A program made the translations under genes and the position numbers. Shown piece after piece: positions 1 through 43,690 of a DNA stretch of 43,780 bases. Under the pieces are notes generated by a model. That model searched no databases. It was not told the origin of the DNA and saw nothing but the letters and a program-made list of their open reading frames with translations. Every line of letters starts with the position of its first letter. Position 1 is the stretch's first letter. This DNA comes from a virus. The DNA lies in IMG/VR virus record IMGVR_UViG_3300037587_000519, positions 1 through 43,780 of that record. One strand, given 5' to 3'.

Positions 1-127
1 AAAAGGAAATAGAGAATGCAAGAATCTAAAGAAGTAACAAAGGCCAAAATAGCTAATGAAGAGTACTTACTAAAGGCTCGTCAAGAAAATGACCTCATGT
101 ATAAGAAGAGGCACGCTTTGGACTTTG
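1..127. repeat. Left copy of 127-bp direct terminal repeat
   Basis: The first 127 bases are identical to the last 127 (43654-43780). The repeat lies inside a coding region (the start of the 92-aa gene) and the flanking sequence continues in frame across the join, so a circular or circularly permuted molecule of 43,653 bp is the simplest reading. A length of exactly 127 equals a common maximum k-mer of de Bruijn assemblers, so this is probably an assembly overlap and not a physical terminal repeat. Confidence 0.93.
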
Positions 128-294
128 ATATGGAAATCATCAGGCTAGAATGCAGAATAGAGACTGACCATCTATATGCCACTACATCAATCATAAAAGA
201 GTATGGCCCCGAAAGTAGTATGCTGACCTTGATAGATAAGATGCGCGATAAGGGCTTGGAGACACTCGCCAAACATAAAAAAGGAAGTGAGTAG
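16..294 (+). CDS. Hypothetical helical protein (92 aa)
   Basis: Starts at ATG 16 (same base as 43669 in the terminal repeat) after an AAGGAA ribosome site and ends one base before the next gene. The product is charged and mostly helical, with long KAKIANEEYLLKARQEN and DMEIIRLECRIE stretches that suggest a coiled coil. I do not recognise a family. It lies in the rightward early operon, between the ribbon-helix-helix-like gene and the pentapeptide-repeat gene. Confidence 0.75.
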   Translation: MQESKEVTKAKIANEEYLLKARQENDLMYKKRHALDFDMEIIRLECRIETDHLYATTSIIKEYGPESSMLTLIDKMRDKGLETLAKHKKGSE

Positions 295-1041
295 ATGAGC
301 GACGAACAAAGAAACACAGGTGACAGGAACACAGGTTACAGGAACACAGGTGACCGGAACACAGGTGACAGGAACACAGGTTACAGGAACACAGGTGACC
401 GGAACACAGGTGACTGGAACACAGGTAACAGCAACACAGGTGACTGCAACACAGGTTACTGCAACACAGGTTACTGGAACACAGGTGACAGAAACACAGG
501 TAACTGGAACACAGGTTACTGCAACACAGGTGACAGGAACACAGGTTACTGGAACACAGGTGACAGAAACACAGGTAACTGGAACAATTGCAATTTTGAA
601 ACTGGGTATTTTAATACCACTCAATCGGATGATGTTAGAATATTTAATAAATCCTACCCTAGAGAAAAATGGGAGAGTTTAGATAAGCCAGATTTTTTGT
701 ACTTTAATCTTACAGAATGGATTAGAAGTGAAGATATGACGGATAAGGAAAAAGAAGAGAATCCAACTCATGAAACGACATGTGGATATTTAAGAAAATA
801 CGAATACAAAGAAGCTTTTAAAGAGTCTTGGGATGAAGCAAGCAAAGAGGATCGAAAGAAAGTATTTAATCTTCCTAATTTTGACGCTGATATATTACTT
901 GAGATATCCGGCATCGATGTAAGGAAGGATGATAACTCAGATAAAATCAAAACATTGATTGAGGCTCAAAAAGAGTTAGTCGAGAAGGCAGCAGAAATAC
1001 AAAAACAAATTGAGGGGCTACAGAAATACCATGGAGCTTAA
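295..1041 (+). CDS. NTG pentapeptide-repeat protein with conserved C-terminal domain (248 aa)
   Basis: ATG at 295 directly follows the previous stop. Residues 7-96 are 18 uninterrupted five-residue units of the form NTG-D/Y/N-R/W/C/S, then a degenerate unit (residues 97-106). Such units are expected to form a right-handed beta-helix. Residues about 110-215 form a separate domain with PREKWESLDKPDFLYFNLTE, a DMT.KEKEENP segment, GYLRKYEYKEAF, and NFDADILLEISGID, a combination I know from pentapeptide-repeat proteins of phages and bacteria with no defined function. Residues 216-248 look like a coiled coil; the last eight (GLQKYHGA) derive from a duplicated segment read in a different frame. Role unknown; it belongs to an early accessory operon. 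Confidence 0.8.
   Translation: MSDEQRNTGDRNTGYRNTGDRNTGDRNTGYRNTGDRNTGDWNTGNSNTGDCNTGYCNTGYWNTGDRNTGNWNTGYCNTGDRNTGYWNTGDRNTGNWNNCNFETGYFNTTQSDDVRIFNKSYPREKWESLDKPDFLYFNLTEWIRSEDMTDKEKEENPTHETTCGYLRKYEYKEAFKESWDEASKEDRKKVFNLPNFDADILLEISGIDVRKDDNSDKIKTLIEAQKELVEKAAEIQKQIEGLQKYHGA
313..582 (+). repeat. 15-bp tandem repeat array (18 units)
   Basis: Eighteen consecutive 15-bp units around AACACAGGTGACAGG encode the NTG pentapeptides. Because the unit is a multiple of three, gain or loss of units by slippage or recombination keeps the frame. The array leaves other frames open on both strands, which creates long false reading frames (VTGTQ and VPVTC types). Confidence 0.95.
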
Positions 1042-1178
1042 AATGAAGGCGTTAGATAAATCATCACCTAGCGATAATGTCCAGCTTATTATGCTTACCG
1101 GCATGATATCTGGAGTGAATGAAGCAATTAAACAAGCAGAGGGTAGATTATGAGCACAGAGGTGATGGAGCACAGGTT
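1015..1178 (+). repeat. Segmental duplication, copy 1
   Basis: About 160 bp matching 1686-1849 without gaps and with roughly ten substitutions. Its left end replaces the 3' end of the NTG-repeat gene and its right end runs into a fragment of another NTG-repeat gene, so this copy is a recombinant junction. Confidence 0.9.
1043..1153 (+). CDS. Truncated duplicate of the 57-aa gene (36 aa)
   Basis: ATG 1043 to TGA 1153 gives MKALDKSSPSDNVQLIM..., matching residues 22-57 of the intact gene at 1651. The first 21 codons are lost at the duplication boundary. No good ribosome site is visible; translation could be coupled to the stop of the NTG-repeat gene two bases upstream. It overlaps the next fragment by ATGA. 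It may be a remnant and not a working gene. Confidence 0.45.
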   Translation: MKALDKSSPSDNVQLIMLTGMISGVNEAIKQAEGRL

Positions 1179-1212
1179 ACTGGAACACAGGTTTCCCACC
1201 AAAGTTATTTAG
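1150..1212 (+). pseudogene. Broken duplicate of the 65-aa gene
   Basis: Begins MSTEVMEH exactly as the intact gene at 1821, then changes to RLLEHRFPTKVI and stops at 1212, because from about 1173 the DNA is NTG-repeat sequence in another frame. The ATGA overlap with the preceding frame is kept from the parental copy. A recombination event has cut this gene after eight codons. Confidence 0.75.
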
Positions 1213-1348
1213 AACAGATAATGACGATTACTGGCAGTTTCATTTAGACATGCTGAATGATATTGAAGATGGGTTAGGCGATTTCAATGCCGAAATAAGA
1301 CAAGTTGCGCATAAAAGCATAACAACCGATATACTAGTCTCATATTAG
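1166..1348 (+). pseudogene. 3' remnant of a second NTG-repeat gene
   Basis: In the frame of codon 1175-1177 the sequence reads WSTGYWNTGFPPKLF, then about 45 further codons to TAG 1348, with no start codon at the front. The two NTG units match the style of the gene at 295, but the C-terminal tail (DYWQFHLDMLNDIEDGLG) differs. It looks like the end of a different member of the repeat family, joined to the duplicated segment. Confidence 0.6.
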
Positions 1349-1371
1349 TCAGCTCAACCAAGGAGAGCAAC

Positions 1372-1632
1372 ATGAAGAAAGTCTCACTCAGTTACAAGTT
1401 AGTCGAAGGAAGCCACAACAGTGAAGGACAATTTGTTCAACATGGGCCAAAGTTGGAGGAGGAAACACTAACCTTCTATAATGAGTCTGACTTATTGGCT
1501 TGGATCTCGAAGAGTCGTGAAACACAATTCAAGTACATCGAAGTCAGTACAGTATTCTTTAGCCGTAACCAATGCTCAGACGGACGAGCTTTTGATGAGC
1601 TTACCGTATTGTCAAGATTTTTACCTCGATGA
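1372..1632 (+). CDS. Hypothetical protein (86 aa)
   Basis: ATG 1372 with ribosome site AAGGAGAGCAAC just upstream. The protein begins MKKVSLSYKLVEGSHN and contains a LLAWISKSRETQFKYIEVS segment; mixed alpha/beta, soluble, no family recognised. It stands between the two copies of the segmental duplication, so it is part of what the duplication spans. Confidence 0.7.
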   Translation: MKKVSLSYKLVEGSHNSEGQFVQHGPKLEEETLTFYNESDLLAWISKSRETQFKYIEVSTVFFSRNQCSDGRAFDELTVLSRFLPR

Positions 1633-1650
1633 ACTTAAGGAGTTTAAAAA

Positions 1651-1824
1651 ATGAGCAAAAAACAGGAATATATCGACTTCATGAAGGGCTACAGAAATAC
1701 CATAAAGCTTAAAATGAAGGCGCTAGATAAATCATCATCTAGCGATAATGTCCAGCTTATTATGTTTACTGGCATGGTTTCTGGAGTGAATGAAGCAATT
1801 AAACAAGCAGAGGGTAGATTATGA
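1651..1824 (+). CDS. Hypothetical protein (57 aa), intact copy of a duplicated gene
   Basis: ATG 1651 preceded by TTAAGGAG. The protein starts MSKKQEYIDFMKGY and its last 36 residues recur in the truncated copy at 1043. Helical and soluble, unknown function. The stop overlaps the next start as ATGA (1821-1824), so the two genes are probably translationally coupled. Confidence 0.65.
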   Translation: MSKKQEYIDFMKGYRNTIKLKMKALDKSSSSDNVQLIMFTGMVSGVNEAIKQAEGRL

Positions 1825-1849
1825 GCACAGAGGTGATGGAGCATAAGTT
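1686..1849 (+). repeat. Segmental duplication, copy 2
   Basis: Matches 1015-1178 at a constant offset of 671 bp. This copy sits inside two intact overlapping genes (1651-1824 and 1821-2018), so it is the likely parent. Confidence 0.9.
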
Positions 1850-2018
1850 AAGATTTGGTGAAGGTGAAATAATGGAGTTTATTGAGTGTCACGCAAACTT
1901 TCTACTATTATCATTGAGCGAAGAAGATGTTTCTCTTTCTGAGGTAATGATTACCAATGCCGACGATGTTCAGAGAATTATTGACGTGTTAGAATTACAT
2001 AAAGCCCGAATGAGATAA
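1821..2018 (+). CDS. Hypothetical protein (65 aa)
   Basis: ATG 1821 overlaps the upstream stop. The protein MSTEVMEHKLRFGEGE... is acidic with a predicted C-terminal helix (VQRIIDVLELHKARMR). Its first eight codons recur in the broken copy at 1150. No family recognised. Confidence 0.7.
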   Translation: MSTEVMEHKLRFGEGEIMEFIECHANFLLLSLSEEDVSLSEVMITNADDVQRIIDVLELHKARMR

Positions 2019-2068
2019 CAGCAAAGAAGATCCCTAACATAACCATTAACTACTAAAAGGTAAAAATT

Positions 2069-2953
2069 ATGAATGAAGAAACTGAAGTAGCAAAATTGAC
2101 AGAATTCGAGACTAATCTTGTAAACGCGGCACAATCTTGTGAAATCGCACGTCAAGAAAAGAATCACACAATCCAGACTCTTAAGCTCGCCAAGGGCTTA
2201 TCAGATCTCAAAAGGGCTCTATTGGCACCAGAAGTCCTTTCTTTGATAAAAGAGTTAATGAATACCCCAACTGGATTCTTGACTGACAAAGATCCATCCA
2301 AGCCTGTAAAGAATAAAAAAACTCAACAGTGGGAGAATCCAACCCCATATAGCGACAAAATTATTGTTGAATGTGTCGCTGATGCTATGTCAAAAGGGCT
2401 CACTATTCATAATAATGAGTTTAATATCATTGTTGGCCGCATGTACCCTGCACAAGCCGGATTCACAAGAAAGCTTGCAGAGTTTAAGCGCAAGCATAAA
2501 ATAAAAGCCGGCTACATGCCGTCAATTCCAAAAAAGAGCGGTGCTGCATATTTTTGCGAAGCTGTGGCATGGTGGCAAAAAGAAGGTGAAGACAGGCAAG
2601 AAGAAACGATTTCTTGGAATCTTGCTGCATTTTCTGAAGATGCCGCTTTAGGTAAAGTCAAAAAACGGGCCAATGAGTGGTTATTTAATGAGCTTTCCGG
2701 CAACACCTGGACGTCCGCAGAGAATCATATTGATTTTAATCCTACTAAAAATGCCAACGACATTGATATGCCGGAAGAGCCAAGGGAGCAATCAACGCCG
2801 CCAGCGTCAAAAGAAACAGTCTTGGATGCTTTGAATGATGCCGAGACTATTAAAGGACTTGAGGCGAGATATAAAAAAGCTTGTGACATTGGTTTCAGCA
2901 AAGATGACGACATTCACGCCGCATATAATGAGAAAAGAGAGAGCTTTCAATAA
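2069..2953 (+). CDS. RecT-like single-strand DNA annealing protein (294 aa)
   Basis: Probable recombinase that anneals single strands during phage recombination or replication. The core lies at residues 55-140: an LMNTPTGFLTDKD segment, then a helix ending ADAMSKGLTIHNNEFNIIVGR and YPAQAGFTRKL, a pattern I associate with RecT-type phage annealing proteins. Residues 220-294 are charged and probably disordered with a helical end. Ribosome site AAAAGGT; the stop overlaps the next start as TAATG. The neighbouring YqaJ-like exonuclease gene strongly supports a two-component exonuclease/annealase system. The exact RecT subfamily is uncertain. Confidence 0.8.
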   Translation: MNEETEVAKLTEFETNLVNAAQSCEIARQEKNHTIQTLKLAKGLSDLKRALLAPEVLSLIKELMNTPTGFLTDKDPSKPVKNKKTQQWENPTPYSDKIIVECVADAMSKGLTIHNNEFNIIVGRMYPAQAGFTRKLAEFKRKHKIKAGYMPSIPKKSGAAYFCEAVAWWQKEGEDRQEETISWNLAAFSEDAALGKVKKRANEWLFNELSGNTWTSAENHIDFNPTKNANDIDMPEEPREQSTPPASKETVLDALNDAETIKGLEARYKKACDIGFSKDDDIHAAYNEKRESFQ

Positions 2954-3744
2954 TGAAAATCGAAATCCCAGTATTTAAAATTCGTGCCAGCGCTGCAAGT
3001 AAAATTATGGCCAATGGCAAAGGCTCCGGCGGTTTAACCGATAGGCAAAAAGAAGAACTTGCCGACCTTCAAGCAAAAGGAAGTAAATCAAAAAAAGTAC
3101 AGGAGTTAATCGACAAGCGCGATAAACCGCCGGAACTTTCAGCAGGGGCAAAGACTTATTGTAAAGCTTGGCTAAAAGAGCAAAAGGGTTTTTATGGTCG
3201 CCGCAAAGAAATAAAATCTAAGTATCTGGATAAAGGCAATGAGTGTGAGGATGAAGCTATTGGCCTTCTGAATAAAATTCACCTTGAAGATTATATTAAG
3301 AATGAGGAATTTTTTGAAGATGATGACTTGCAGGGCACACCGGATATAATCGCAAACCTCACAAGAGACACAAAATGTAGTTATGATGAAACTACCTTTC
3401 CTTTATTTGAAGACTTCTGTGATGATGATTATTATTGGCAGGGGCAAGTTTACATGGAATTAACCGATAGACCGGCGCATTCAGTTGATTATTGCCTAAT
3501 AGATACTCCAGACCACCTCATAGAGCGAGAAATTGAGTTTGCTGCTTATACTTCTCCAAAGCCTGATGAGGAATTGAGAGAGTATTATTATAATAAAATG
3601 CGGTTTACGGACATCACCAGCTTGAAATTAAGAGTTAAATCTTTCTGCTTTAATCGTGATAAGGAAAAAATTCAGCAGTTGAGGCAGCGCGTTAAAATGT
3701 GCCGTGAGTATATTAAAACTTTAGTGGAGAAGGTGGCGCTTTGA
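2953..3744 (+). CDS. YqaJ/RecE-like exonuclease (263 aa)
   Basis: A PD-(D/E)XK nuclease of the lambda-exonuclease/YqaJ type, expected to resect double-strand ends for the adjacent annealing protein. Residues 92-102 YLDKGNECEDE form the first helix motif; GTPD at 128-131 and DTKCS at 139-143 supply the D...D-x-K catalytic core; YYWQGQVYMEL at 160-170 is the glutamine motif. The start ATG overlaps the upstream stop (TAATG), showing tight coupling. An insertion at 24-60 rich in K and E is predicted to be coiled coil. The next gene starts at TTG inside the stop (TTGA). Confidence 0.88.
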   Translation: MKIEIPVFKIRASAASKIMANGKGSGGLTDRQKEELADLQAKGSKSKKVQELIDKRDKPPELSAGAKTYCKAWLKEQKGFYGRRKEIKSKYLDKGNECEDEAIGLLNKIHLEDYIKNEEFFEDDDLQGTPDIIANLTRDTKCSYDETTFPLFEDFCDDDYYWQGQVYMELTDRPAHSVDYCLIDTPDHLIEREIEFAAYTSPKPDEELREYYYNKMRFTDITSLKLRVKSFCFNRDKEKIQQLRQRVKMCREYIKTLVEKVAL

Positions 3745-3941
3745 GGCTGACCGAGGATCTACCCCACTGCATGAGCTGCGACCTCATAACAGCAGGCAAA
3801 GACGAAGCTATGAAGATTCAGATCGCTGGTGAGCATATCGCAAGGGTAATTAATCTAAGCCAGTCTAAAAGGAAAGTAGAGGATTATTCAATAAAGATAG
3901 TCAACAACCAAGCTTATTTTACGTTAATAAAAGGAGAGTAG
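3741..3941 (+). CDS. Hypothetical protein with TTG start (66 aa)
   Basis: The TTG at 3741 overlaps the exonuclease stop and has a GGAGAAGG ribosome site 7 bases upstream. An ATG at 3771 is a weaker alternative. A CMSCD pair near the N-terminus could bind metal; the C-terminal part has alternating beta-like IKIVNNQAYFTLIKGE. Function unknown. Confidence 0.6.
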   Translation: MRLTEDLPHCMSCDLITAGKDEAMKIQIAGEHIARVINLSQSKRKVEDYSIKIVNNQAYFTLIKGE

Positions 3942-3942
3942 G

Positions 3943-4104
3943 ATGGCTAAATGGCCTAAAGTAACAATCAGCGTCTTAGATATCGATGTAGTCAAAGATC
4001 TAATAAAATTAACCAAAGATTTATTCAATGAGTTAGAGGGTCAGGATTGTTACCCGCCCATTCTTGAGGATTATCGAGATAGAATAGACAAGTTGATTAA
4101 GTAA
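3943..4104 (+). CDS. Hypothetical protein (53 aa)
   Basis: ATG 3943 after AAAGGAGAGTAGG, TAA at 4102-4104. The product begins MAKWPKVTISVLDIDVVKDL and is a small helical soluble protein. The same leader sequence AAAGGAGAGTAGGATG recurs before the next gene, so the ribosome site block was probably duplicated. Confidence 0.65.
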   Translation: MAKWPKVTISVLDIDVVKDLIKLTKDLFNELEGQDCYPPILEDYRDRIDKLIK

Positions 4105-4115
4105 AGGAGAGTAGG

Positions 4116-4436
4116 ATGATTAGAAATGTATTTAGTTTAGGTTTATTATCGTTTGCGGTTTGGATTACTTATGTCAATAAGACAGATCCTTATTTAAATG
4201 TATTAATGGCTTATGCATTTATTGGGTTAGTTTTCATGCCTTTAGTGTTTTTGGGATATGCATTTACGCCAAAGGATAAGCTAAAGCCCCTTGCGGCGAG
4301 TTTATCAAAATTAACACTCAATTTGCTTTGGTGTGTGGTTTGGGTAAAGATGATCATAATGGGTTATTTATGGTCAGGATCACTTGGCATAATTGCGGTG
4401 ATTGGATGCCATTGTATAATGAGGCCGCACTCTTAG
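4116..4436 (+). CDS. Multi-pass membrane protein (106 aa)
   Basis: ATG 4116 with an AAAGGAG ribosome site. Three to four hydrophobic segments: about residues 5-20, 28-48, and one or two in 67-100, with short charged loops (TPKDKLKP). Holins have this size and topology, but it sits in the rightward early operon with recombination genes, so a superinfection-exclusion or other membrane role is equally possible. It is the last rightward gene before the convergent leftward terminator. Confidence 0.65.
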   Translation: MIRNVFSLGLLSFAVWITYVNKTDPYLNVLMAYAFIGLVFMPLVFLGYAFTPKDKLKPLAASLSKLTLNLLWCVVWVKMIIMGYLWSGSLGIIAVIGCHCIMRPHS

Positions 4437-4463
4437 AGATGAATGAAGATAGATAGATAAAAA

Positions 4464-4497
4464 AGCGCTTCAAGTCAAGGGTGGGACTTGAAGCGCT
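4464..4497 (-). terminator. Terminator of the leftward late operon
   Basis: A perfect 13-bp stem (4464-4476 with 4485-4497) and 8-base loop. On the minus strand it is followed by a run of six T, as for a Rho-independent terminator. It lies just after the last leftward gene (stop 4514). On the plus strand there is no T run. Confidence 0.9.
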
Positions 4498-4513
4498 CTG
4501 CAGGGGGGAAGGT

Positions 4514-4687
4514 CTAAGGAATTAAAGGCAACTTTAGGCTCGGGCTTAAATCTTCTAAATCCGATCCTTTTATATATGAGTCTATCTTTATATCACTTGA
4601 ATCCTTAATTGTAATATGGATCTCTTTTTGGATTATGCACGAGGTAAACAGAAATACACACAAGGTAAATTTTAGTTTGCTTTTCAT
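4514..4687 (-). CDS. Small lipoprotein, candidate outer-membrane spanin (57 aa)
   Basis: Start 4687 with an AGGGAG ribosome site. Residues 1-16 MKSKLKFTLCVFLFTS form a signal sequence ending in lipobox LFTSC with Cys16 or Cys17 as the lipidation site; the mature part is about 40 residues. A short lipoprotein at the end of the late operon, close to a membrane-anchored coiled-coil protein (4847-5176), fits the o-spanin role of fusing membranes at lysis. It is not proline-rich as lambda Rz1 is, so the assignment is inferred from topology and location. Confidence 0.6.
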   Translation of the reverse strand: MKSKLKFTLCVFLFTSCIIQKEIHITIKDSSDIKIDSYIKGSDLEDLSPSLKLPLIP

Positions 4688-4821
4688 TGATATCTCCCTG
4701 CTTCTAAGTTATCCAAGAATGAGGTAATCGCGCTCAGGGCCTCTTTGCGGATGGGTGCGGCCTCCACTTGCCCTGTCCTTTTTAGTCCATCTCTGATTGC
4801 TTTGCGTGTGGTGATGCTCAT
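4684..4821 (-). CDS. Hypothetical protein (45 aa) with TRK-x-IR motif
   Basis: I place the start at ATG 4821 (MSITTRKAIRDGL) after AGGAAGGGG; a TTG at 4878 would add 19 residues but overlaps the upstream gene. The N-terminus resembles that of the 146-aa protein at 41995 (MSAPTRKVIREAL), at the other end of the leftward gene set. The rest is a single predicted helix pair. The stop overlaps the lipoprotein start as ATGA. Confidence 0.55.
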   Translation of the reverse strand: MSITTRKAIRDGLKRTGQVEAAPIRKEALSAITSFLDNLEAGRYQ

Positions 4822-4846
4822 TGTACTAACCCCTTCCTGAATACGA

Positions 4847-5176
4847 TTACTTATCTTTCTTGTTATCGAGAACATCAAAAACTTTGCCTAAGAGTTTCTT
4901 TATATCTTTAACATCTTCACCGATGCAGTCAATTTTAACATCGATCTCGGTTTGCTTATTCACTATTTTATTTATCGAGTCTTCATGCTTTTCGAGTCGC
5001 TTCTTGATTGGCCTTATCTTATCATCAACTTTCTTATCCACTTCAATCAAAATATCGCCTTTCTCGGTTTTAGTCTTCATAATGAAAAAAGGACTTACAA
5101 AAGAGATTAGCAATGTTAGCAATCCTAATCCGATAGCAACTTGAGACCCTTCTGAAATACCTAATATAAAACTCAT
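4847..5176 (-). CDS. Membrane-anchored coiled-coil protein, candidate inner-membrane spanin or holin-associated (109 aa)
   Basis: One N-terminal membrane segment at residues 12-33 (VAIGLGLLTLLISFVSPFF), then a highly charged helix from about 37 to 109 with heptad-like spacing (IKKRLEKHEDSINKIVNKQ). N-terminal anchor plus long coiled coil is the i-spanin layout, and a lipoprotein gene lies downstream. Small phage holin-like or XhlA-like proteins also combine these elements, so the precise role is uncertain. Confidence 0.6.
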   Translation of the reverse strand: MSFILGISEGSQVAIGLGLLTLLISFVSPFFIMKTKTEKGDILIEVDKKVDDKIRPIKKRLEKHEDSINKIVNKQTEIDVKIDCIGEDVKDIKKLLGKVFDVLDNKKDK

Positions 5177-5258
5177 TATTTAAACCTATGACAATTTGAC
5201 GTTACTTAATATTGCACTTCAGCCAATAAACTGCAACTTATAGCGTAACATTATACTC

Positions 5259-5657
5259 CTAAACACTAAAATTAAAACTAGCTTTACCGCCGGATCTTAC
5301 AGCCTCAAAGTACTTAATTAACCTTACTCTTGCCATGTGCCGCCGGGCAGTATTGACACCCCATAGATACCATCTGTCTGGCGTATTCTCGATAATAAAT
5401 AAAGATGTTCCAAGCATTTCTACATCAGATCTAAATCGATCCTTTTTGTTTCCGCCTATCGCATAATTCGCATCATGTTGATAAAAGGCAATATTGCAAT
5501 CGATACCATATAGAGTATGCGGAATCATCATCGCTAAAGTTTTATTATTATCTGGCCCCGCATAATCACAACTCGGCTCGTAAGGCCCGATTGCGTCATA
5601 GTAGCTTTTATACTCTGGCAGGTTTATAAACCAATCATGTATTTCTAAGTCATTCAT
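5259..5657 (-). CDS. Phospholipase-A2-like phage protein (132 aa)
   Basis: The segment from residue 46 reads IPHTLYGIDCNIAFYQHDANY, followed by AIGGNKKDRFRSDVEML and a C-terminal RVRLIKYFEAVRSGG. The HD dyad, the downstream D..., and the tyrosine/valine helix match a phage family I know as phospholipase-A2-like, in which His-Asp are the catalytic pair. It lies between the receptor-binding genes and the spanin-like genes, where an endolysin would be expected. It might act on membranes during lysis or entry. No signal peptide is seen. Family moderately sure, activity unproven. Confidence 0.55.
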   Translation of the reverse strand: MNDLEIHDWFINLPEYKSYYDAIGPYEPSCDYAGPDNNKTLAMMIPHTLYGIDCNIAFYQHDANYAIGGNKKDRFRSDVEMLGTSLFIIENTPDRWYLWGVNTARRHMARVRLIKYFEAVRSGGKASFNFSV

Positions 5658-5666
5658 AATTTACCA

Positions 5667-7088
5667 TTAAATAATATAAGTTTGAGTATCGCCGTCTGCT
5701 GTAGCGCTATTCTGCGCAGTGCCATTATTTGAGTTGACGCTTAAATCATTGAGTGAATCATCGTTACTATTCGCCGCGTATGCCATAGCCGCCTTAGATT
5801 GAACCCCTGAAGTAAGTTCATCAAAGGTAATGACTCTATTGCCAGCCCCATACAAAGAAGCAACTTCAACCGAACTAAGAGCAGAGTTAAATATCATTGG
5901 CTGTGTAGCTGATCCGACCATAGAACCCGCTCCAATATTAGGCCCGCCATAATCGCCGATAGAAACACTTGTTGTCGAGTTATGGATACCTGAGCTATAA
6001 GTTGTGCTATTCTCTAAGACTCCATTAATATATATATGGATATCGGTTCCATCATAAACGCCAACTAAATGCTTCCAAGTATCCGAATTTGAGGCAGTAG
6101 TACTTGATACGGTAGTAGTGCTTGTGCCGCCAGAAGAAACAAAGAATTTATATACTCCTGATTCTGATCTTAAGTTCCAGGCTCTTTGATTGTCTGAAAA
6201 GCTATATTTTGAAAAGAATATCTTACTTGCTACTGAATCCTTGACCCATATAGCGACAGTTATATTGCCGGTGATTTGTAAAGTAGCGCCATTACCTGAG
6301 TTGATATAATCAGTGTTATTGAATCCAAAAGAGTTATATACAGCAGTTGTAAACTCCGGCCCAATCTTCCAAGTGACAGGCTGACCATTCACAAATGAAC
6401 CGCCAACAAACGCGCCGTTATTTCCTGCGGTGGATAGGTCGGTTACAGTGTCGTCATTACTACTCAGCTCAAATGCCATTACAGCATCATCTGTTATTGC
6501 GGTATCTATTAGAGAATATTTACACGGCATACCGCCATTGTATATAGTCGCAAAGTTCGCAAGAGATGAGGGAGAATTAAATAACATAGGCTGAGTAACA
6601 TCAAGGTCATTGGAATAAATAGTAAGGTCAATTGTCCCTATCTCAACAACTCCCGATCCAGAAAAACAGGCCCCCTTGGCTGTGGATTGTTCAGAGGCTC
6701 CATTTATACCAACATAAACATTGCCCCCTGTTAATCTGAAATGGACTAAAGATAATGTATCCATAGGCACATCAACTGTCGAAGCAAATGTAGTATTAAC
6801 TATACCATCAACAGAGTGATTGAAGATTATGTTTCCAGAAGTGTTTATTCCGAGCCCCCATGATCTCTGATTTCCTGATTGCGTGAATTTACTCATTATC
6901 CGCTGAGTGTCGAATCTATTCTTAGGATAAACGAAAGCACAACCAGCGAAATCATTAGTCATATCTAGGGTAGCGTGGTCGGCGACTGTAACACCCCGGA
7001 AAGTATCAAGATTGGACATAAAATACTTGGCGAAGTTGGCTACCCCAAGTTTGGCGCTGGTTAATATACCCCTGGCTAACGGTGTCAT
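5667..7088 (-). CDS. LamG/concanavalin-like receptor-binding protein (473 aa)
   Basis: Two laminin-G-like (jelly-roll) domains are visible. The first covers about residues 30-190 and the second about 230-420; the second includes ITVAIWVKDS, RAWNLRSESGVYKFF, WKHLVGVYDGTDIHIYING and SVSIGDYGG, typical of LamG_3 lectin folds. Such domains bind glycans at the tail tip. The start overlaps the upstream fibre gene by one base, so the two are probably co-translated. Likely the distal host-recognition subunit. Confidence 0.75.
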   Translation of the reverse strand: MTPLARGILTSAKLGVANFAKYFMSNLDTFRGVTVADHATLDMTNDFAGCAFVYPKNRFDTQRIMSKFTQSGNQRSWGLGINTSGNIIFNHSVDGIVNTTFASTVDVPMDTLSLVHFRLTGGNVYVGINGASEQSTAKGACFSGSGVVEIGTIDLTIYSNDLDVTQPMLFNSPSSLANFATIYNGGMPCKYSLIDTAITDDAVMAFELSSNDDTVTDLSTAGNNGAFVGGSFVNGQPVTWKIGPEFTTAVYNSFGFNNTDYINSGNGATLQITGNITVAIWVKDSVASKIFFSKYSFSDNQRAWNLRSESGVYKFFVSSGGTSTTTVSSTTASNSDTWKHLVGVYDGTDIHIYINGVLENSTTYSSGIHNSTTSVSIGDYGGPNIGAGSMVGSATQPMIFNSALSSVEVASLYGAGNRVITFDELTSGVQSKAAMAYAANSNDDSLNDLSVNSNNGTAQNSATADGDTQTYII

Positions 7089-9547: not shown

Positions 9548-9718
9548 ATGAAAGTACTTGTCGGTATCATCGCAGTTATAATGCTATTAAGTCTCGCTAT
9601 TTACTCAGCTATCAATCTATTTATCGCGCCAATTTGGATGCTTTGCATGATGGCTTACAGTTCATTCTTTATCTATATGGTGATAAAAGACATGACTAAA
9701 AAAGAGGTGGCGCAATGA
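9548..9718 (+). CDS. Small membrane protein of the pseudopilin cassette (56 aa)
   Basis: ATG 9548 with AAAAAGGAG upstream; stop overlaps the next start as ATGA (9715-9718). Two hydrophobic segments: residues 3-20 (VLVGIIAVIMLLSLAI) and 24-46 (LFIAPIWMLCMMAYSSFFIY), then a charged tail KDMTKKEVAQ. It may help insert, hold or process the pseudopilin encoded next. Unknown family. Confidence 0.65.
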   Translation: MKVLVGIIAVIMLLSLAIYSAINLFIAPIWMLCMMAYSSFFIYMVIKDMTKKEVAQ

Positions 9719-10152
9719 AAAAGAAAAACTTTACTATTATCGAGCTTCTAGTGGTCATGACTATAATGTCAATCCTCTTAGGTATATCCATGCAAGTCCT
9801 TAAGCCAGATAGAGCCAAAGCCGCTATCAAGCAAGTCGGCGGCAGCATCACTGCTTGGAGTGCAAGAGCGATGTCTGAAAGCACTAGCTATCGTTTAGAG
9901 TTCACCAAAAATCTTATTGAAGTTTATAATATTAATAATGAATTAGTTTACTCAAAGAAGACAATGAGCCCTCTTTCATTCTTTGATCATGCGGATATCC
10001 CCCAACCATTGCCAGATCAGACAATCGTGTTTAATAAATTCGGCAGCATGGGGGATCTAAGAGGTGCTAGAATATATGCTGATACTTGGATAGCCCGTGT
10101 TAATGGCTTTACTGGTCACTTATCTTATTATGAAGAAGAAGAGGATGAGTAA
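9715..10152 (+). CDS. GspH/FimT-like pseudopilin with prepilin signal (145 aa)
   Basis: The N-terminus MKKKNFTIIELLVVMTIMSI is a type IV prepilin leader: five-residue basic leader, cleavage before Phe, conserved Glu at +5, then a hydrophobic helix of about 20 residues. Total length and the later ARAMSESTSYRLEF, TIVFNKFGSMG and VNGFTGHL segments fit the GspH/FimT class of minor pseudopilins. The residue before the cleavage site is Asn, where most bacteria have Gly. It is encoded rightward inside the leftward tail operon, as a moron-type insertion. It would need host prepilin peptidase and could alter host type IV pili or type II secretion. It ends back-to-back with the next gene. Confidence 0.8.
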   Translation: MKKKNFTIIELLVVMTIMSILLGISMQVLKPDRAKAAIKQVGGSITAWSARAMSESTSYRLEFTKNLIEVYNINNELVYSKKTMSPLSFFDHADIPQPLPDQTIVFNKFGSMGDLRGARIYADTWIARVNGFTGHLSYYEEEEDE

Positions 10153-24743: not shown

Positions 24744-25373
24744 TTAATCTAAAATTACCCAGTCTTCAGCGAGCATGTCAGTCTGAGAAGCAAGCCAGCC
24801 ATTTACAATTGTCCCATCAGCAGCCTTCATGCAGAGGTAAGCTGTGAAATTAATTGTGAATGGACTTCCGTTTGAGGCTTGCTTGTAATCGCCTTTGAAT
24901 TTATCGGCAATATGTTGCTTCACTACATCAGGAATACTTTTAACGTTTTCCACAACAACTTGAGCGGGTATGCTATCGGCTGGGCGCATAAAAACAAACA
25001 TGTCTTTGCCATTCCAGCCTTTGCGAGCAACGGTTAAACCATTCTTAAGAGCTTCTATTGCATGCCCAAAAGTCATTAATGGAACAACCGTAGCTCCCTC
25101 AATGTGTATAGCACCCTCAAGGGCATCATCCTCGATTTCTTGCATTGGGCCGTCAGGCCACTGAACTAGAGTTACTCCTTGAGAAGCAGAACAAAGACGG
25201 TTTGCCTCTTCAAACTGTTTCTTAGGACACCAAGATTCATAACCATCTGGGTAGATAACCAAGTAGCCTTCTTCATTATCGTCTTTACAGTCTAGTCCCT
25301 TAATGTTCATATAGAACTCATACTTGTTCAAGGGCCTAGCTTCAACTATTTTAACACCGATATATTTGTTCAT
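24744..25373 (-). CDS. tad2: Tad2-like anti-Thoeris protein (DUF2829) with extra N-terminal domain (209 aa)
   Basis: Residues 99-209 match DUF2829: MTFGHAIEALKNGLTVARKG then WNGKDMFVFM, a YLCMKAADGTIVNGWLASQ segment and TDMLAEDWVILD. DUF2829 includes Tad2, which sequesters the cyclic ADP-ribose isomer made by Thoeris and so blocks that defence. Residues 1-60 are a separate phage domain (KYIGVKIVEARPLNKYEF, GYLVIYPDGYESWCPKKQFE) that I have seen joined to DUF2829. The gene ends the accessory island, followed by a terminator. Family sure, anti-Thoeris activity inferred. Confidence 0.85.
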   Translation of the reverse strand: MNKYIGVKIVEARPLNKYEFYMNIKGLDCKDDNEEGYLVIYPDGYESWCPKKQFEEANRLCSASQGVTLVQWPDGPMQEIEDDALEGAIHIEGATVVPLMTFGHAIEALKNGLTVARKGWNGKDMFVFMRPADSIPAQVVVENVKSIPDVVKQHIADKFKGDYKQASNGSPFTINFTAYLCMKAADGTIVNGWLASQTDMLAEDWVILD

Positions 25374-32596: not shown

Positions 32597-32643
32597 GCCT
32601 CACCTCGCACGAATAGCGCTGCTATCTTTTCTGCTGTGTTCAT
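32593..32643 (-). CDS. Possible 16-aa coupling peptide
   Basis: ATG 32643 overlaps the upstream stop and its TGA overlaps the next GTG, giving MNTAEKIAALFVRGEA. It bridges two genes exactly and may serve to couple translation. Too short to be sure. Confidence 0.35.
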   Translation of the reverse strand: MNTAEKIAALFVRGEA

Positions 32644-33125
32644 GATTTTCCCCACTCAATTTTTAACTCTTCGCCGATCCATTCGAGTTCATCCTCTTGG
32701 CGAAGATCCCCCATCCAAAAACCATCACCTTTTATATAATGAGCAACGTATTGATCATTAACGAAACCCCATTTCACCGGATAAAATGCCCCATCCTTAA
32801 ACACGCGCTCTGGCTCTGGCACCTCGGATGAAGTGGCGGGGCGAACTATGTGACAAGCTTCAATGAAAGGCGCCGTTAAGTGCTCACCTAGTTTTATAGT
32901 ATTTTCAAAGCGACCATTGGGCATTGTCTTAACTTCGCAGTAATACCATTTATCCGGCTGGATCTTCAAGTGGTAGACGGTTTGCCCACAACCTCCAGCG
33001 GTTACGATTGACCATTCATTAGACGAAACCAATTGATACTCATACCTATATTCAATGAAATCGAACCCCGCCTGATCTTCTTTGGTGATATTTTTCCACT
33101 GTACTAAATTCGTTACTTGATTCAT
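32640..33125 (-). CDS. Hypothetical protein of a tandem paralogue pair (161 aa)
   Basis: MNQVTNLVQWKNITKEDQAG is nearly the same as the start of the next gene (MNQVTNLIQWKNLSKEEQAG), and both share RPAT..EVPEP. The C-terminus carries the RVFKDGAFYPVK and EWIGEELKIEW module also found at 25703. Looks like a tandem duplication with later domain exchange. Function unknown. Confidence 0.65.
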   Translation of the reverse strand: MNQVTNLVQWKNITKEDQAGFDFIEYRYEYQLVSSNEWSIVTAGGCGQTVYHLKIQPDKWYYCEVKTMPNGRFENTIKLGEHLTAPFIEACHIVRPATSSEVPEPERVFKDGAFYPVKWGFVNDQYVAHYIKGDGFWMGDLRQEDELEWIGEELKIEWGKS

Positions 33126-33589
33126 GATTTTATCGCCTCTTTAAAATATTCCCAAACTTCATCATTTGACATTTTAACATTATTCACATAGTAAGAATAA
33201 ACCCCGTCAATAAAGGTGAATGTCATCATAAAGCTTCTATACTCTGGAACGTGAACCGGTAATGCTGGCTTTGGCACCTCGGCTTCTGTGGCGGGGCGGA
33301 TAGACAAGTATTCACTGATTCGCACCTCATCCCTTTCATTTTCGTCGATGATGAATTTACCAGATAAAGTATTGACATCACCCTCAAAGTCTGTCACATA
33401 AAGCTTATCCGGCTCGATGACTAGGCGGTAGACAAAATTTAAATGCTTATTATGAGATAAATCGTAGTCTCTGAATGGCTCCCACTCTTCATTAACTTGC
33501 CTTTCATACTTATACCCCTCAAAATCGAAACCCGCCTGTTCTTCTTTGCTTAGGTTTTTCCACTGTATTAAGTTGGTTACTTGATTCAT
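33122..33589 (-). CDS. Hypothetical protein, tandem paralogue (155 aa)
   Basis: ATG 33589 with GGGAG upstream, two bases before the previous stop region; a longer start at 33613 is rejected. It shares the first 90 residues in pattern with the downstream gene, including FDFEGYKYERQ and IEPDKLYV, but has a different C-terminal end (YSYYVNNVKMSNDEVWEYF). Confidence 0.65.
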   Translation of the reverse strand: MNQVTNLIQWKNLSKEEQAGFDFEGYKYERQVNEEWEPFRDYDLSHNKHLNFVYRLVIEPDKLYVTDFEGDVNTLSGKFIIDENERDEVRISEYLSIRPATEAEVPKPALPVHVPEYRSFMMTFTFIDGVYSYYVNNVKMSNDEVWEYFKEAIKS

Positions 33590-33590
33590 G

Positions 33591-33815
33591 TTAATCTCCC
33601 TCTCTTGGGTCATATTCTTCTGTTCTGACTTTGGACTTGATTGTGTAATCGCAATGTCCGTATTCTTCGCCGTCGTGCTCGTCGTTATCTTCGCAGTATT
33701 CGTGAATATTATCTAGCGCATCTTCAATACAATTGCCCGCAACTCTAAACTCTGAGCCGCTATTGAATTTAATATCAAAGATGTATTTGCCGCGTGTTTT
33801 GGTTAGTTCACTCAC
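33591..33815 (-). CDS. Hypothetical acidic protein, GTG start (74 aa)
   Basis: GTG 33815 within a GTGA overlap. MSELTKTRGKYIFDIKFNSG then a very acidic EDNDEHDGEEYGHCDY segment. Beta-alpha pattern; unknown. Confidence 0.55.
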   Translation of the reverse strand: MSELTKTRGKYIFDIKFNSGSEFRVAGNCIEDALDNIHEYCEDNDEHDGEEYGHCDYTIKSKVRTEEYDPREGD

Positions 33816-43522: not shown

Positions 43523-43690
43523 ATGCCACAAGCATCAATTAAGATTAGCACTTTTACACATAGTGTTTTAAAGGACGTTAAAGAGCTGACAGGTAAGTCG
43601 ATTACCAGAATAGTTGAAGATCTAGTTAAAGCCGAATATCCAGCTAAATATAAAAAAGGAAATAGAGAATGCAAGAATCTAAAGAAGTAA
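43523..43690 (+). CDS. Small ribbon-helix-helix-like protein (55 aa)
   Basis: ATG at 43523, TAA at 43688-43690, with an AAAGGAA ribosome site 6-7 bases upstream. The N-terminus reads MPQASIKISTFTH, a short beta strand, followed by two predicted helices with KSITRIVEDLVKAEY in the second. This is the size and layout of Arc/MetJ-type ribbon-helix-helix DNA-binding proteins. It is the first gene of the rightward operon and overlaps the next gene (start 43669) by 22 bases in another frame. It may regulate the adjacent divergent promoters. The family assignment rests on pattern only and the C-terminal tail is basic and probably disordered. Confidence 0.6.
   Translation: MPQASIKISTFTHSVLKDVKELTGKSITRIVEDLVKAEYPAKYKKGNRECKNLKK

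Follow-up and report, generated by a model that had tools for sequence, protein, structure and literature searches.

A chimeric duplication beside a phage NTG-repeat gene and its possible origin by displacement of an old C-terminal tail

Near the start of a phage contig, a gene for an NTG-repeat protein is followed by a mosaic of gene fragments held together by two fusions: the end of the gene runs into a copied piece of two genes that lie a short way downstream, and this piece runs into a remnant of the NTG repeat that carries a different C-terminal tail. The reading that we think has about an even chance of being right is that the locus is a mosaic recombination scar, in which an old tail was displaced by an insertion into the NTG array. 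A sequence-only reading had already described a chimeric duplication with a remnant of the 3' end of an NTG gene and a different tail, and the analysis supports that description; the further proposal, that the locus stores alternative tails, fared badly (see below).

The stretch analysed (the window) is a 43,780-base IMG/VR virus record. It is a phage contig and probably a closed genome, because its ends carry an exact direct repeat of 127 bp. The terminase and structural genes are on the minus strand, and the locus falls in a plus-strand gene run, one member of which encodes a phage exonuclease. The features of this region are as follows.

16-294, plus strand: 92-aa ORF, which opens the plus-strand run and is also present at 43669, across the end repeat
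295-1041, plus strand: NTG gene, 248 aa, with an 18-unit NTG array and a phrog_14105-like C-terminal domain
313-582, plus strand: NTG array, 18 units of 15 nt (AAC ACA GGT followed by six variable nucleotides)
465-486, plus strand: one of two exact array matches to the 22-nt stub
540-561, plus strand: the other exact array match to the 22-nt stub
1015-1175, plus strand: left copy of the duplication (copy A)
1166-1192, plus strand: NTG stub, WSTGYWNTG, whose last 22 nt (1171-1192) are identical to the array
1193-1348, plus strand: orphan tail FPPKLF...LVSY and its stop codon TAG, coding-like
1372-1632, plus strand: 86-aa ORF, directly 3' of the orphan tail, with a ribosome-binding-like AAGGAG
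1651-1824, plus strand: intact 57-aa ORF, either the source of copy A or its sister
1686-1846, plus strand: right copy of the duplication (copy B), covering the end of the 57-aa ORF and the beginning of the 65-aa ORF, both intact
1821-2018, plus strand: intact 65-aa ORF, whose start (1821-1850) resembles the NTG array
2069-2953, plus strand: 294-aa protein, immediately upstream of the exonuclease gene
2953-3744, plus strand: phage exonuclease (phrog_5715, 162 bits)

The NTG ORF is separated from the following gene by 330 bp, whereas the other eight junctions in the run have spacings of -4 to 50 bp. Promoter-like and terminator-like sites do not rise above the level of shuffled sequences, and an Rfam scan of 1-4500 found no RNA element. 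The 92-aa ORF matches no Pfam family above the cut-off.

The NTG gene appears complete in itself, with matches to both Pentapeptide_2 (PF01469; 84.7 bits, cut-off 26.4) and phrog_14105 (190 bits, E 9e-56). At least 80 related viral loci were collected for comparison. In the structure model, block-mean pLDDT is 69-97 from about residue 110 onward and the array is not resolved; a fold search gave a single viral hit, an unnamed protein, and no PDB entry came below E 8. A PADLOC match of the coiled end to Csm2 (E 0.003) was taken as chance. Array length steps by whole units among near relatives, with Barba phage genes of 963, 978 or 993 bp in the 60 of 115 records listed. Our literature search found no paper that brings together pentapeptide repeats, phage and NTG, or Pentapeptide_2 and phage.

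The duplication was claimed to be 160 bp long at an offset of 671 bp, and this is borne out: copies A and B are identical at 151 of 161 bases, with no gaps and an offset of exactly 671, and their longest exact run is 64 bp, starting at 1109. BLAST widens the match to 1011-1179 and 1682-1850 (93.5%, E 2e-68) and, the NTG array aside, ranks it as the strongest internal repeat of the window. Copy A consists of the 57-aa ORF without its first 12 codons, followed by the first codons of the 65-aa ORF. The ten differences argue that the event was not very recent or that the donor was a different phage. The ATA of copy B is ATG in copy A, at 1031-1033, which makes a possible start codon overlapping the end of the NTG gene. 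Across 45 codons the copies show five amino acid changes and about three silent ones; a dN/dS estimate was dropped because the changes are too few.

Copy A was also said to replace the end of the NTG gene. The NTG ORF does end inside copy A, so the copy supplies its stop codon and only its last 7-8 codons or so. Three relatives (L009, L060 and L068) likewise have a charged stretch of similar length after the domain, at the end of the protein, and therefore copy A replaced a few terminal NTG residues at most.

At its right end copy A switches, at about 1171, into 1.6 NTG units (1169-1192), differing from copy B at 1173 and 1175 and diverging from it completely at 1180 and beyond. The switch into WSTGYWNTGF and a different C-terminal tail is as originally described: the sequence reads TGG AGC ACA GGT TAC TGG AAC ACA GGT and continues as FPPKLF...SY to TAG at 1346-1348. 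The stub is genuine. On the position matrix of the array, 1166-1195 scores 41.2 bits, and the next best non-array site in the window reaches 10.1. The match to the array is 22 of 22 bases at both 465 and 540, and the one base preceding it differs (AGC for AAC).

The tail looks like a true gene end, because its frame is open and coding-like, it is followed by a stop codon and a new gene, and a helix is predicted within it. In the frame of the array, 1193-1345 is open with a codon score of +10.2 bits, based on codon use in 22 genes of this genome, while the five other frames all score negative and all contain stops. After the TAG, the 86-aa ORF with its AAGGAG begins 23 bases on. A model of 60 residues, made without an alignment, shows one helix spanning 19-58 (mean pLDDT 68). 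An in-frame TGA lies just upstream at 1163-1165, however, and the earliest start codon in this frame is the ATG at 1250. Translation of the stub and tail as an NTG protein is therefore not to be expected at present, and the leftover as it stands is no working alternative tail. Neither the tail nor the 86-aa gene has a Pfam or PHROG family above noise, and PADLOC assigned no family to the 86-aa gene.

How could such a locus arise? In the displacement reading, the ancestral resident gene would have had its NTG array joined directly to the FPPKLF tail. DNA bearing the present C-terminal domain, followed by part of the 57-aa/65-aa gene pair of this phage or of a relative, would then have entered the array. 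The right-hand crossover would have exploited the likeness of the start of the 65-aa gene to an NTG unit, and the old tail, with the 1.6 array units attached to it, would have been shunted downstream, where it is now silent. In keeping with this reading are the coding-like tail in phase with the array, the unusually wide spacing after the NTG ORF and the whole-unit length changes of related arrays.

The right junction supports a crossover driven by homeology. The start of the intact 65-aa gene (1821-1850) aligns with the array at 22 of 29 identical columns with two 1-nt gaps, and the junction of copy A falls within this array-like stretch. Of 17,356 overlapping 40-nt windows taken outside the array, those over the stub among them, 0.2% score as high or higher, in a test chosen after the junction had been seen. 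The earlier suggestion of a microhomology crossover is thus right about a crossover at short NTG-like homology and wrong in one respect, since the homology is imperfect and not strict microhomology. The left junction, at about 1011-1015, has no NTG likeness (its score is reached by 16% of windows), and so two different junctions are needed.

An agent for such a crossover may lie nearby. The exonuclease gene is about 1.6 kb downstream of the scar, and the 294-aa protein encoded just before it is perhaps the annealing partner of the exonuclease, judging from position: its relatives (72-74%) likewise precede an exonuclease-like gene, and it has only a weak match, to phrog_10294. Recombination between divergent sequences by phage Rad52-like recombinases has been reported in work on relaxed homologous recombination (PMC3945230). 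The present case shares with that account of phage mosaicism the joins at short or diverged homology and a phage with its own exonuclease module; it differs in that no parental phages are available and the recombinase partner has no family assignment. In a sibling phage (G001, L047-L049; terminase 75% identical) the exonuclease had no match, and a different ORF pair occupies that place, before an ORF like one that follows the exonuclease in L036.

The arrangement resembles C-terminal displacement at rhs loci, which, as described by Jackson et al. (2009, PMC2935791), carry silent tips with core fragments downstream of an intact gene. Both have an intact, one-tailed gene and, downstream of it, part of that gene's core fused to another tail that is silent, and in both the displaced core fragment is identical to the attached core. 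The differences are that the gene here encodes a phage NTG-repeat protein with no toxin or immunity gene recognised (the Pfam and PHROG searches of the tail and the 86-aa gene gave neither a toxin tail nor an immunity family), and that a single displaced tail is present, in one genome, beyond an intervening copy of part of the neighbouring genes.

The ancestral state required by displacement has not been seen, because no relative in the collections searched carries the FPPKLF tail on an array. A complete second NTG gene with this tail had been suggested as something to look for in relatives; neither such a gene nor any relative of the tail, attached to a core or otherwise, was found in viral_contigs, phages (DNA or protein), genome_contigs or plasmids, the pattern scans of contig collections reaching close relatives only. 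Similarly, the 57-aa ORF has no relatives in viral_contigs, phages or genome_contigs, and the 65-aa ORF has none in viral_contigs. The sibling phage (L037/G001) is without both the NTG gene and the 2069-2953 gene and therefore cannot show the ancestral state of the site.

The main competitor, which we consider unlikely though well ahead of those taken up after it, starts from two tandem NTG genes. The start of the second would have been deleted, and template switching would have closed the break with a templated 150-bp copy of the 57-aa/65-aa pair. The copied piece is indeed flanked by two different junctions, and tandem NTG genes do occur in related phages. L058 has two whole ones, and L129 has five tandem NTG-family genes at 2212-6904 of a 156-kb phage contig, all five having an N-terminal domain and array of their own; these cases fit deletion and count against displacement. 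What leans the other way is the 22-bp identity between the stub and the resident array. Exact same-phase partners of 22-mers are common within a gene's own array (742 of 1204) and uncommon between separate stretches of the same locus (18 of 204) or with one other locus (246 of 9632). With samples that are not independent, this comparison favours an origin of the stub from this same array over a foreign one (about 24-fold) or a paralogous one (about 7-fold). The stub 22-mer has no exact match in the 89 other NTG loci; one locus matches with one mismatch, one with two, and the rest with three to eight. On this basis the evidence tips toward displacement over deletion from a tandem pair, and the tail may once have been attached to the very array that now precedes it.

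The 89 loci comprise the at least 80 viral loci from a scan with a seven-sequence alignment and nine more, two contigs being counted twice (L082 repeats L009, and L085 repeats L011), and 79 of them have an array by the pattern used. Sites of at least 18 bits outside the array ORF occur in 6 of the 79 loci listed, against a largest score of 19.9 in the reverse-strand control. The site in L129 reflects its tandem NTG genes, those in L084, L113, L123 and L132 are in unrelated ORFs, and L068:286 is a weak site (18.5 bits) that was left uninspected. Apart from this last site, no comparable orphan stub with another tail was found among the 79 array loci listed. The absence of a second case counts against displacement. 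A general version of it, an Rhs-like tail exchange in which phage NTG proteins swap C-terminal domains by array insertion, silent old tails remain, and the stubs let phage recombination return to the old tail, we regard as very improbable.

An assembly chimera of two strains is about equally improbable. The window is a metagenomic virus record with 15-nt repeats and a 64-bp exact run shared by copies A and B, which could invite misassembly; against this, the contig is closed by its exact end repeat, the copies differ at ten positions, and the stub matches this genome's own array. The 127-bp end repeat may reflect a 127-base assembly word, in which case no shared run here reaches that length.

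The idea of a working tail store has slightly less to recommend it, and we think it most unlikely. On this view, phage recombination between the 22-bp direct repeats would, in some genomes, remove the present C-terminal domain and fuse the array to the FPPKLF tail. The exact repeats at 465/540 and 1171 do share codon phase, and by coordinate arithmetic a join at 540 would yield a 140-aa protein in frame; in principle, then, the repeat permits a deletion that rejoins the old tail in frame. Such a deletion is one-way, and the tail could be rejoined only once, so it does not amount to a store. The TGA and the late start codon also speak against a working system, both joined gene pieces are truncated, and the other NTG loci listed (L068:286 aside) have no such orphan. 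Finally, it is just as unlikely that copy A is still a gene, with the ATA-to-ATG change at 1031 giving a start that overlaps the NTG stop and a 40-aa version of the 57-aa protein: the frame is open to 1153 with a per-codon score like that of the intact gene, against which the excess of amino acid over silent changes is compatible with no constraint, the changes being too few to judge.

Elsewhere in the window, three other loci were noted. A Tad2-like domain (Thoeris anti-defence 2 family, 86.4 bits) is encoded at 24744-25373 on the minus strand, between structural genes. At 9715-10152 on the plus strand, oriented against the strand of the late genes, lies a gene for a phage protein whose N terminus bears a prepilin methylation motif (Pfam N_methyl, 27 bits), with relatives in two other phage contigs (L050 and L047). 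The neighbouring minus-strand ORFs 32640-33125 and 33122-33613 look paralogous (repeat 33040-33126/33504-33590, 82%) and match no Pfam family.

If displacement is the correct reading, repeat arrays within phage genes would be docking sites for the exchange of protein ends, as has been described at Rhs and similar loci of bacteria. The locus is a single scar of modest interest, with unusually readable steps, and its value is chiefly as a traceable example of phage mosaicism.
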